DNA of 64,000 nucleotides from Chondrilla cf. caribensis (taxonomy: Eukaryota; Porifera; Demospongiae; Chondrillida; Chondrillidae), in the NCBI GenBank assembly GCA_964020155.1, contig OZ026550.1, positions 2,230,852 to 2,294,851 on the forward strand, given 5' to 3'. The notes beneath the pieces are model-generated. The model made no database searches. It was not told where the DNA came from and saw only the letters and a list, made by a program, of their open reading frames with translations. Of the stretch, positions 1 to 57,979 are shown in pieces; position 1 is the stretch's first letter, and every line of letters starts with the position of its first letter. Both the position numbers and the translations under genes were made by a program.

Positions 1-3000
1 AATTTTCCTTGCATTTCAAAAGTTGGTCAGATTATATGTAATAGACAATGGCTAAGTGATTTTCATAATTTCTATGCTTAGTTTAATCAACAACAGTGCC
101 AATGTAATTACCTTGACACTACATAATATGTATGTCCCTATATATAAAAACTCAGGGTATAATAACAAGTGATTCAAGTTAGAAATCTTATGGGGCTGCT
201 GACTCCTGTTCTCTTTCAGGCACAGAAGAACCTTTGCTGAAGTTATTACGTTCATCAAAGCTGTTTGTTGCCACATTAGGGACTGTGAAGCTAATATGCA
301 CATGACTACCTAATGCCAACCTGAGATCATAAGACTGCTTCTGTTAGCTAGCTACATATTATGATGTTTGCCTTGTTATGAAAATATTTGCATAATTCTT
401 CAATTTTTCTCCAATTCAAGAATAAGTGCATCAAATCTTTTGCAAATTGTAGCAGGGATCGAGTATGCAATGAGGTATGTGTGTGATAGAATATGTCTTT
501 GATGATCACATCCCAGCTTCACAGATTGTGTATAATCTGTATGTTGGTATGGTGTAATTTACACATACATACCATGCAGGTGTATGACATTGTGGTATAT
601 TGCATGTTTGAAATATCAAACAGTTTGGCACACAAATTTACTGTGTGGCAGTACCAACTAGAAATGGTTGATATGTACAATTATATGTTGAAATGTACAA
701 CATGATATTTATTCAATGACATGATCAATTGCAAGATTTCTTCTGGATTGCATGACATTGTGTACATTTTCTTCCATAATATCTTTAATGATAGCATCAT
801 CTTCTCAATTTACAGCACTTTAACAAATTGATTAATCAACATGGATGTTGTGTAAAGGAAGTAATGGACCACAGACTTGGATTGTAAGTACATCACAATA
901 ATTACATAGTTCCTTACTGACTGCATGCTCATACTGTAACAGTAGATCATCATCAATAGGAGCGTGTGTTTCATGCCATGTTGGCCTACTTATTTTAAAC
1001 TGATTATGTGGTTGTGAGGGTTTTCCATACCAATGCACCAAAATGAGAAATCCAAGAGATGAAGGAATTTAATAAGTAATTCAAGTTGAAAAACTCGTGG
1101 GGCTGCTGCTCCCGCACTTGAATTACTTGGACGTCTTTGTTAGTTCCAGAAGAGCCTTCACTGAAGTTATTACGTTCGTCAGATTTCTATTTCTAATTGT
1201 CGGCATTCAAATTCAGCCATCTTTATTTTATTCAATATAAATTAAATATATATTCATTGTTGGGGTGACACGTAGGAACACATATTATATTATATAATAT
1301 AATATATATATATATATATATATATATCGGACGGCAGCTGTGTTAGCCCCTAAAAATGCATAAAATTCTCCTTAGTGGAGCAGTTCTACTGTATTAGGCG
1401 GACACCTGTGGTTCTCTACCATATTTAGCACTTAAAAGATAAGGATATATCCCTGTTAATATGAATTTGTCATAATAATTATTATTTATATATTGTGTGA
1501 AAATTTTTAACTGTTCTTGGAAGAATTTGTACTAATGCATCCCCACATACGGTAATTGTAAAGGTTTCATTTTTCAGGTTTTTACTACTAACAGTTTTCA
1601 CTGCATATAAGTTGTTATTACGTATTTGTAGCTCAAGTAGGTGTACTTGTACCACACAACTTGTAACAATAATATATAGTGTCAATAATAATTATTAAAA
1701 TATGCACACATATATTATCATACATATTATGAAAAGCATATAATATTATTCTCCATCACACAGCCTGACCAACTTTGATTTCTTTGAATTTTGTGATTTG
1801 AGCAATCCTGGGAATTGCGTAAGTCGAGCATTTGATGTGTTATAACATGTACCTACAGTGTACCAGATCAGACCAAGCCTCCATTTCCATAACAATGATT
1901 AACATTTTTTCGCAATGATATTTTTGGCTACTTCCCACCTTACATTTATAAGACTACTTTTAATCACTAACTTCAATGTTTGGGTACACGTGGTATGTGT
2001 TCAAATTCTGCAGCCTTCTACAAATGTATCGAAAGTGACACCATCTGTGTCTGTGAGTTCACATGCTTGTATAAGTCATGCAAATACATAGGTGTGTGAT
2101 AATTGGATAGACATTACATCACATGGACTGAGAGATACTCTTGGAAAGTGCATGAAACTTGTCTATACATGTGACACTGATTTACTATACACTTGCACAA
2201 TAATAATATTATGAATGTTATTATTATAAATTGATGAGCTCGCAAGGAAATTATATATGGAAAATTATTTGCAAATTATTTTCATGTCTATCTATTCCTT
2301 ATGCATGAAGTATACTGTGAGGAAGACATTGTGTTCTATTATATATATTATATATTACATATGTGTATAATGTTGCAGATAAGTTTGGATTCACCAATTC
2401 TTTAATGTGCAATCACAGTAACGTTCCTTTCTTGCTTTGTCATTTTAGCCTTCCCCTTCACCTACTCCTCCCCCATTGCCTACTACTACCCCTGGCCCTA
2501 TGCTTCCACGCTGTGATCGTAAAGCGAAAGAGTTTATCAACATGAGGGAGTGCAGTGCTGGATTGGACCTACGATCTGCACATATTTTTGCTCAACCACT
2601 CTCATCCTGTGAGTACCAGTTATTTTATTCAAGGTTTTGCCAGTCTCAGAAATGCTTGAACAGATTGGTGAACCTACTGGAGGTATGTCTCAGTGAAGCT
2701 GGACTGGATAAAAGGAACGGCGACGTCTCTGTGGTATGTAATCAGTAGTAATGATATTTTTTGCACATAATTACACAAAAGTATATGTACCTCTTTCAAT
2801 CATACATGTATGTATAATATTTTCACTGACAGCATTTTAGGTTGATTCAACATCATTTAATTTGTGTTCCATTTTGACGTTATTTGCTTGATAATTGATG
2901 TAGTTCTCACAAAATATCAGTTTATTTTTAATCCAAACACATCATCTATGCAAAAAGCCCAGAAATGTTCTGAAATACAAGTGAAGATGTATTTTGTTAA

Positions 3001-56827: not shown

Positions 56828-57979
56828 ATGTTTCTGAAGATGGACCTTTCCTTCTTTGTTGTTGCCCTCCTTGTCAGCACTACTGCTGCCTTGGAGAAGG
56901 ACCACTTGGAGAAATTGAAGGATGCCAGCCGTGAACTCAAGCTCACTCATCATTTCAGGCCTCAAGGGATCAGCCCTGCTAACTTGGATAGAGTGCGTAG
57001 AGGTATTGACCCTCAGTGTTACAATGCTGGACTTCAAGTAGTGCGAAAGTGCATATTCAATATTACTGAAATCATTGATGCATATACTGGCCAGGAGGAT
57101 GCTGCTTTGTCTGTCAAACAAGTGAACGACATCCTCTGCACCTATGACGGCTGTTACAATGCTGTTCTCAATGCCTCCAAAACATGTGAATTTAAGGTAA
57201 ACAATATTTTTTGTTTTCAAGATCTTGTATATTGAATGAAATGTATGTTGTTCATCACAGGTTATCCTGTGATTTCTATGTACAATATTATATGTATTCT
57301 CTTTCTAGAATTGAGCTAGTTATAGACTTATACTTATGAATGTAAAATTATACACCATTAATTTTACTAGTGCTTCATACTTTGATAGTTTTATACCAAG
57401 ACATTTGAAAATGAACACGAGTTGAACTGTAAAGTTAATGCCAATGGGACCTACTGCTTGGAAGCATCTTTGGCTATGTCTGATAACACTTCTGTGAGTT
57501 CTTGATTTTGCCTGCATTTCCAGAATTTGCTACATTATTATATTTATGTATACTGTATGCTATACCATATCCGTTGTGGAGCAATGCAATGACTGAAGGA
57601 TTCTCATTTAACTCTAATTAGTCTAATTAACAACAGTGTCAATGTAATTTCCAGGACATTATAAATCTGTGCAAAGTATTAAGAATTATTAGGAGTATAT
57701 AATAATATATTATAATGTGCATTGACTACAGTAAAAAAACAAATTATTTTACTGTTAGTTATGTTTCACCTGACCACGATGAATGTTTCACATTGCACAG
57801 TCTGTGATAGATTGATGTGGAGTATGGTGTCAGGTGTTTGCCATGTTTGACTAGAGAGTTTTCATTTTGCATTTGCTTGCTGAGAAATTACTGCTATAAT
57901 TCTTCTATTCTTTTCCTGAATGAAGAGCGCATGTTTCCAATCTATTGCAACATGTCGCAGTGATCCAGTATGCCATGAG
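56828..57979 (+). pseudogene. Gene 6: 3'-truncated copy of the Cys-rich family (subfamily B-like)
   Basis: Exons 1-3 are intact: 56828-57196, 57389-57493, 57926-57979 (176 residues: signal peptide MFLKMDLSFFVVALLVSTTA, RVRR site, first 10 cysteines of module A). Exon 1 lacks one codon near its end (CEFK for CEEFK). Introns match gene 4 closely. Homology to gene 4 stops in intron 3 at about 58114, where a repeat element begins, and exons 4-12 are not found in the remaining 6 kb. If transcribed it would give a truncated or read-through product. It may be the broken end of the array, or its 3' exons may lie beyond 64000. Confidence 0.75.

Follow-up and report, generated by a model that had tools for sequence, protein, structure and literature searches.

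Arrays of secreted cysteine-rich proteins that vary in copy number are already a known kind of locus, and knottin-type defence peptides are characterized by a short mature peptide with a knottin fold. For the mussel Mytilus, PMC10138031 describes cysteine-rich CRP-I genes that lie mostly in one small region and comprise about 50 paralogues together with pseudogenes and presence/absence variation. The locus described here, an array of nine related genes in the sponge Chondrilla cf. caribensis, resembles that cluster in these respects, whereas its products consist of two large modules (A with 14 cysteines, B with 15) that are helical where predicted. The mature chains, of about 360-390 residues and with exon halves predicted to be helical, also do not have the knottin-type size. 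The window, the whole stretch of 64,000 nucleotides that was analysed, is C5:2230852-2294851 in a genome of 136,996,226 bases on 37 contigs. The safest statement is that the array encodes a two-module family that is lineage-restricted, apparently secreted and under constraint, and that one of the modules recurs elsewhere. What is new appears to be a domain without a described match in the libraries searched, which is duplicated inside the gene and apparently linked to two or more other proteins of the extracellular space.

Organization of the array

Exon-by-exon tblastn searches and comparison of the neighbouring DNA placed copies 1-7 head to tail on the + strand. This confirmed the arrangement proposed in the initial annotation, a tandem array of seven copies, but not its count: protein searches added two diverged copies (8 and 9) upstream of the window, whose exon 1 is 33-39% identical to that of copies 1-7, bringing the array to nine genes across about 108 kb, seven of them in or at the window. 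As DNA, exon 1 gave at least seven matches in the 137-Mb genome, all inside the array, and repeats of 200-300 nt within the window are spaced like the gene copies. Five complete and two cut copies had been described. Copies 2-6 are indeed complete, but copy 1 is intact beyond the window edge (exons 1-2 at window positions -673 to -11), so that its cut reflects that edge alone, and copy 7 is broken rather than cut by the window.

421..4885, + strand: copy 1, exons 3-11 (11 exons open, all GT-AG)
10353..15873, + strand: copy 2, full 11-exon gene model
18934..25185, + strand: copy 3, full 11-exon gene model
27699..33069, + strand: copy 4, full 11-exon gene model
39534..43229, + strand: copy 5, full 11-exon gene model, 27 cysteines
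45648..49099, + strand: copy 6, full 11-exon gene model, starting at the second ATG
56828..57979, + strand: copy 7, exons 1-3 of the broken copy (exons 5-11 outside the window)
C5:2200860-2208704 and 2213237-2219390: copies 8 and 9, upstream of the window, 11-exon models

The eight intact copies (1-6, 8 and 9) each have 11 exons and 10 introns, with internal stops in 0/8 and GT-AG at 80/80 junctions, and encode products of 419-447 residues. Their intron phases are 0,0,0,2,0,0,0,0,2,0 throughout, i.e. 0,0,0,2,0 twice, in keeping with the conserved exon structure claimed earlier. Reading the last exon through the short final intron was rejected, because among copies 1-6 the frame stays open far only in copy 5 (copy 6 hits a stop), while splicing gives the KDPR.. 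ending in all eight intact copies and in a related gene on contig C20. The conserved promoter and flanks described for the seven copies likewise held: copies 1-7 have about 160-220 bp of 5' flank in common at 77-90% identity (2.5 kb compared), and longer common flanks of 0.7-1.2 kb occur within the sets 3/4, 5/6/7 and 8/9. A TATA-like motif, GTATAAAAG, lies 38-63 nt 5' of the ATG in copies 2-7, with CATAAAAG as a variant in copy 1; in the 5' flanks compared, it was not found in copies 8 and 9.

39487..39495, + strand: TATA-like GTATAAAAG of copy 5, 47 nt before the ATG

Protein architecture and cysteine plan

In each product, a signal peptide, judged by eye, is followed by a propeptide ending in R-x-x-R, module A, a linker and module B. 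The modules measure about 160 and 185 residues, the mature chains carry 27-29 cysteines, and the linker is rich in proline, serine and threonine in copies 1-4, 8 and 9 and less so in 5-7. Copy 5 illustrates the plan:

39534..39707, + strand: signal peptide (by eye) and propeptide ending in RVRR
39708..41308, + strand: module A, remainder of exon 1 through exon 5, 14 cysteines
41627..41698, + strand: linker, start of exon 6
41699..43229, + strand: module B, exons 6-11, terminus KLKDPRKN

The R-x-x-R site, at which the propeptide would be cleaved, was recovered in 9/9 exon-1 copies: RVRR (1, 3, 4, 5, 7), RLPR (2), RMRR (6) and RKRR (8, 9). The reported total of about 29 cysteines, 14 in module A and 15 in module B, holds in seven of the eight intact copies, in which they are distributed over the exons as 5,2,3,2,2 (A) and then 6,2,3,2,2 (B). 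Copy 5 has 27, as its exons 8 and 10 are each one cysteine short, a hint that these two residues may pair with each other. The cysteine count of module B is thus odd (15, and still odd in copy 5 at 13; more are present in the related gene on contig C15). According to the A-B alignment, the extra cysteine sits in the exon 6 C-E motif. It is invariant in the 10 aligned B rows, and the terminus R-[TS]-K-L-K-D-P-R is found in 10/10 of them.

Internal duplication of modules A and B

The two modules have a common five-exon layout and the same number of cysteines per exon save one. Profile comparison with hhalign aligned A to B at E 1.9e-7 (probability 94, 123 columns) using an enlarged sequence set, and at E 2.2e-5 over 52 columns using six copies. 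The score of 49.9 was reached by 0/100 full shuffles (maximum 19.5) and by 0/100 shuffles with fixed cysteines (maximum 26.4). The repeated phase pattern alone is weak, being reckoned to arise by chance in about 1 in 9 cases (two odd phases among ten); together with the cysteine counts and the profile match, however, it supports an internal duplication. The two-module description given at the outset therefore stands but was incomplete, as A and B are mutual duplicates.

Module B is found at other loci

Module B reaches further than the array family to which it had been assigned. Three protein searches of the own genome each returned exon 6 of module B at the identical 11 loci, i.e. the nine array genes, C20:1357.2 kb and C15:3231.7 kb. 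Two further places in the whole-genome protein searches were at chance level and were not counted (C21, E 7.35; C25, E 1.17). Matches resembling exon 1, which mark module A, were confined in these searches to the nine array copies.

On C20, the B exons have the array phases, 5/5 GT-AG junctions and the ending DPRKV, and come after a PSI-domain exon (Pfam 2e-8; Plexin-A2 1.9e-10). That exon is preceded by an open frame starting with a signal-like stretch, for which no Pfam match was obtained. On C15, the B junctions are again 5/5 GT-AG, with the array phase pattern shifted by a constant, and an FN3 exon lies upstream (Pfam 4.5e-7); two exons before it, Ig-like by eye, gave no Pfam match. Module B thus appears to be fused to a PSI-containing and an FN3-containing gene.

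The C20 gene invites comparison with plexins. Its PSI is closest to Plexin-A2 and lies about 395 residues in, as in plexins, although the PSI part alone matches, and a TIG-bearing gene is located just upstream. It differs in that, by eye, the part from the PSI exon to the stop consists of a short linker exon and module B, with neither TIG nor membrane span. The layout looks as if one ectodomain had acquired module B and shed its TIG and membrane part. In Pfam scans of the array genes, neither PSI nor any other plexin part was found; PSI was met only in the C20 gene. The TIG frames directly upstream of the PSI and B gene (C20:1350000-1352600, L046; 1.5e-20) are accompanied by a weak PSI match and, by eye, a probable membrane span. 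Downstream of the C20 gene, a satellite-like array with units containing ggtccctaacactaactacatccggaggtgc was seen by eye (L047:1140-5000).

Searches against known families and folds

The initial annotation could not assign the products to a known domain and proposed a profile search, which was run against Pfam and gave no strong match. The best E per query was 0.07 for alignment A1 (6 members), 0.062 for alignment A4 (10 members) and 0.042 for seven separate peptides; bits were available for some rows only, and in these no family reached its cut-off. The match at E 0.042 was a weak one to IL22 (14.6 bits against a cut-off of 30). A PDB sequence search returned nothing up to E 10, which leaves the earlier judgement in place. 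Structure prediction of one module, also proposed at the outset, was carried out on the exon-1 and exon-6 halves. Both were predicted to be helical, the exon-1 half with a predicted local distance difference test (pLDDT) score of 61 and the exon-6 half with one of five models at 80 and the others at 54-65. Comparison of these folds gave no informative match, a result that does not exclude families outside the matches listed. Among the papers listed in literature searches, judged by title or abstract opening, no described family that fits was found.

A kinship with the GFR-alpha/GAS1 family (PF02351) was raised by cysteine spacing. Locally, exons 3-4 of module A read C-x6-C-x5-C-x12-C, a spacing similar to the C-x6-C-x5-C-x(9-10)-C in the sequence of GFRA1. 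When profiles were compared alongside shuffled controls, the kinship found no support. Across the six hhalign pairs of A and B with GFRA1 D1-D3 (GFR profiles of two sequences each), the best E was 0.057 and none was clear of the shuffles. Out of 60 full shuffles, the real score was reached by 31, 8 and 20 for A against D1-D3 and by 3, 57 and 6 for B; with cysteines fixed, the counts were 41, 8 and 29 for A and 6, 60 and 11 for B. The nearest case was B against D1, matched by 3/60 full and 6/60 cysteine-fixed shuffles. PF02351 was not listed at E<=10 in the Pfam scan of the seven peptides, a scan in which the HMMER filters drop most weak matches.

Relatives and turnover of copies

A collection of 5.8 billion proteins was searched with the linker removed, an approach that reaches only relatives with shared short exact words. 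It yielded 18 proteins, with E values from 5.7e-57 to 1.9e-31; among the 7062 candidates, no weaker match appeared up to E 10. Earlier searches of the collection had given no match at E<=1e-3 (3741 candidates) or at E<=1 (candidate limit of 8000 reached, with the proline/serine/threonine-rich linker in the query); as 18 matches emerged once the linker was removed and four sequences were added, these empty results are no guide to rarity. Each of the 18 is an open frame on unspliced DNA, 125-202 residues long, and they probably derive from this species and a close one. Exon 1 is carried by 16 of them and exon 6 by P0017; P0018 resembles the C20 gene and continues through an intron.

When the 16 exon-1 frames and the nine own copies were placed in a FastTree tree, printed with no support values, frames from contigs of 2923398 and 2854382 bases, apparently of a related taxon, clustered with clades 8/9, 1/2 and 5-7; the contigs are identified by their length. 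Given this grouping, the three clades seem older than the split between the taxa. P0006 and P0014 are at best 84% and 81% identical to any copy in the array, while P0008 and P0011, which have their longest contig (1306666) in common with them, equal copies 6 and 8. This suggests that the copy set differs between haplotypes or individuals.

Ratios of nonsynonymous to synonymous change (dN/dS) over 28 pairs were 0.35-0.61 in 27 and 0.80 in the youngest pair, 8/9, as expected of genes that are, overall, under constraint. For module A, the ratio was 0.97 (1/2), 1.03 (8/9), 0.30 (3/4) and 0.21 (5/6). The recent pairs 1/2, 3/4, 5/6 and 8/9 have a dS of 0.09-0.16.

In copy 7, about 270 bp that included exon 4 have been replaced by about 17.4 kb of other DNA. 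Exons 5-11 of this copy follow outside the window, starting at 75628, and its exon 7 lacks a donor and reads into a stop. We rejected a long-intron gene model for copy 7, because exon 7 is damaged and the 17.6 kb separating exons 3 and 5 yielded no exon 4. Relic exons are located downstream of copies 4, 6 and 7:

34103..34180, + strand: exon 10 relic downstream of copy 4 (tblastn E 6e-9)
49881..49934, + strand: exon 9 relic with a stop, downstream of copy 6 (tblastn E 4e-6)
50175..50243, + strand: weak exon 10 relic downstream of copy 6 (tblastn E 0.041)

The broken copy 7, the relics and the exon-1 frames elsewhere with no close counterpart (P0006, P0014) support a turnover of copies.

Neighbouring genes and other elements

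Between the array genes and on the opposite strand lie methyltransferase genes, at 34604-35491 (-) and 52723-53709 (-) and perhaps also near C5:2310248. They look duplicated along with the array genes (82% identity over 300 nt), and both match Pfam methyltransferase models; the one at 52723-53709 matches human histamine N-methyltransferase in PDB (E 4.5e-6). An open frame at 50490-51497 (+) combines GIY-YIG (8.3e-5, just over cut-off) with reverse transcriptase (1.5e-4, below cut-off), presumably as in Penelope-like elements. Inverted repeats of 37 nt, 97% complementary and 713 nt apart, delimit 43569-44355 between copies 5 and 6, which is probably a small non-autonomous DNA transposon. Within the DNA that interrupts copy 7, an 837-codon open frame at 59175-61688 (-), with weak Pfam matches below cut-off (MADF, Tudor), is perhaps part of a mobile element. 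Elsewhere in the assembly, contig C37 (19,283 bases) is assigned to the mitochondrion because it contains the genes for COX1, with seven in-frame TGA, and for ATP synthase subunit C (L053:5483-5716; PF00137, 3.6e-14). Among animals, a subunit C gene (atp9) in the mitochondrial genome marks sponges, and on this ground the animal was taken to be one.

Discussion

We tentatively favour the reading that the array encodes extracellular binding or matrix proteins of the sponge lineage, processed by furin and possibly dimeric, with birth-and-death turnover and with module B as a portable C-terminal domain. A binding or matrix role is favoured because module B lies behind PSI and FN3 exons, most copies have a proline/serine/threonine-rich spacer and the number of cysteines in B is odd. 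The signal peptide would bring the chain into the secretory pathway, and a furin-like convertase would cut off the roughly 37-residue propeptide at R-x-x-R, leaving two homologous, cysteine-rich, probably mainly helical modules joined by a linker. The extra invariant cysteine of B (15 versus 14 in A) could join two chains, and B would also form the end of two other genes, one for a plexin-like ectodomain with PSI and one containing FN3. The likeliest use would be binding or matrix assembly outside the cell, and the array may grow and shrink through birth and death of copies. The consistent gene models, the duplication of A and B, the B exons at 11 loci and the broken and relic copies are direct results; the signal peptide, the cleavage, the dimer, the two fusions, the binding role and the haplotype differences we infer.

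Several points weigh against this reading. The forced global A-B alignment of six copies reached a probability of only 35, and the folds were predicted for exon halves alone (pLDDT 61 for exon 1, 54-80 for exon 6). Order, reading frame and phase are the basis on which module B is joined to the PSI and FN3 exons, the site of copy 2 reads RLPR, and the signal peptide of the family was called by eye. Module A dN/dS near 1 in pairs 1/2 and 8/9 also fits relaxed or diversifying selection.

It is possible, though doubtful, that the products are secreted defence or immune effectors, copy-variable and propeptide-activated, directed against microbes, parasites or competitors, as suggested for mussel CRP-I. 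The putative signal peptide, the propeptide, the many cysteines and the tandem array are consistent with this, as are other contigs that apparently carry different copy sets and the comparable genomic behaviour of the CRP-I cluster described in PMC10138031. However, the modules of about 160 and 185 residues are far above short defence peptides, there is no general excess of amino-acid change, and the B exons behind PSI and FN3 exons point to binding rather than killing. For CRP-I itself, PMC10138031 deems antimicrobial action unlikely.

We consider it unlikely that amplification occurred with no special role, i.e. that the copies of a structural secreted protein are neutral or serve dosage alone. 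Recent pairs are indeed little diverged (dS 0.09-0.16), and the array contains a broken copy and relics; yet the two old clades, 8/9 and 1-7, are both kept here and on contigs of the apparently related taxon, and this persistence argues for separate roles. Improbable, too, is a role in signalling, in which furin would activate a secreted, growth-factor-like ligand precursor and B would be its receptor-binding unit: the convertase-like site, the odd B cysteine that could give a disulfide dimer and the position of B behind a plexin-type PSI exon would suit it, but Pfam and PDB gave no known ligand family apart from the weak IL22 match, and nine copies with variable linker length would be unusual. 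Highly improbable, in our estimate, is the most far-reaching proposal, in which A and B represent one new lineage-restricted extracellular domain shuffled by sponges and the array a haplotype-variable recognition locus, whose secreted, disulfide-linked products would vary in copy set from individual to individual and bind B-bearing partners such as the plexin-like PSI protein; if true, the locus would be a candidate for a sponge self/non-self or tissue-fusion system.

The finding offers sponge biology a concrete candidate for an extracellular domain, with cysteine and exon plans that are defined and disulfides that can be tested, at a locus suited to typing of copy number in different individuals.
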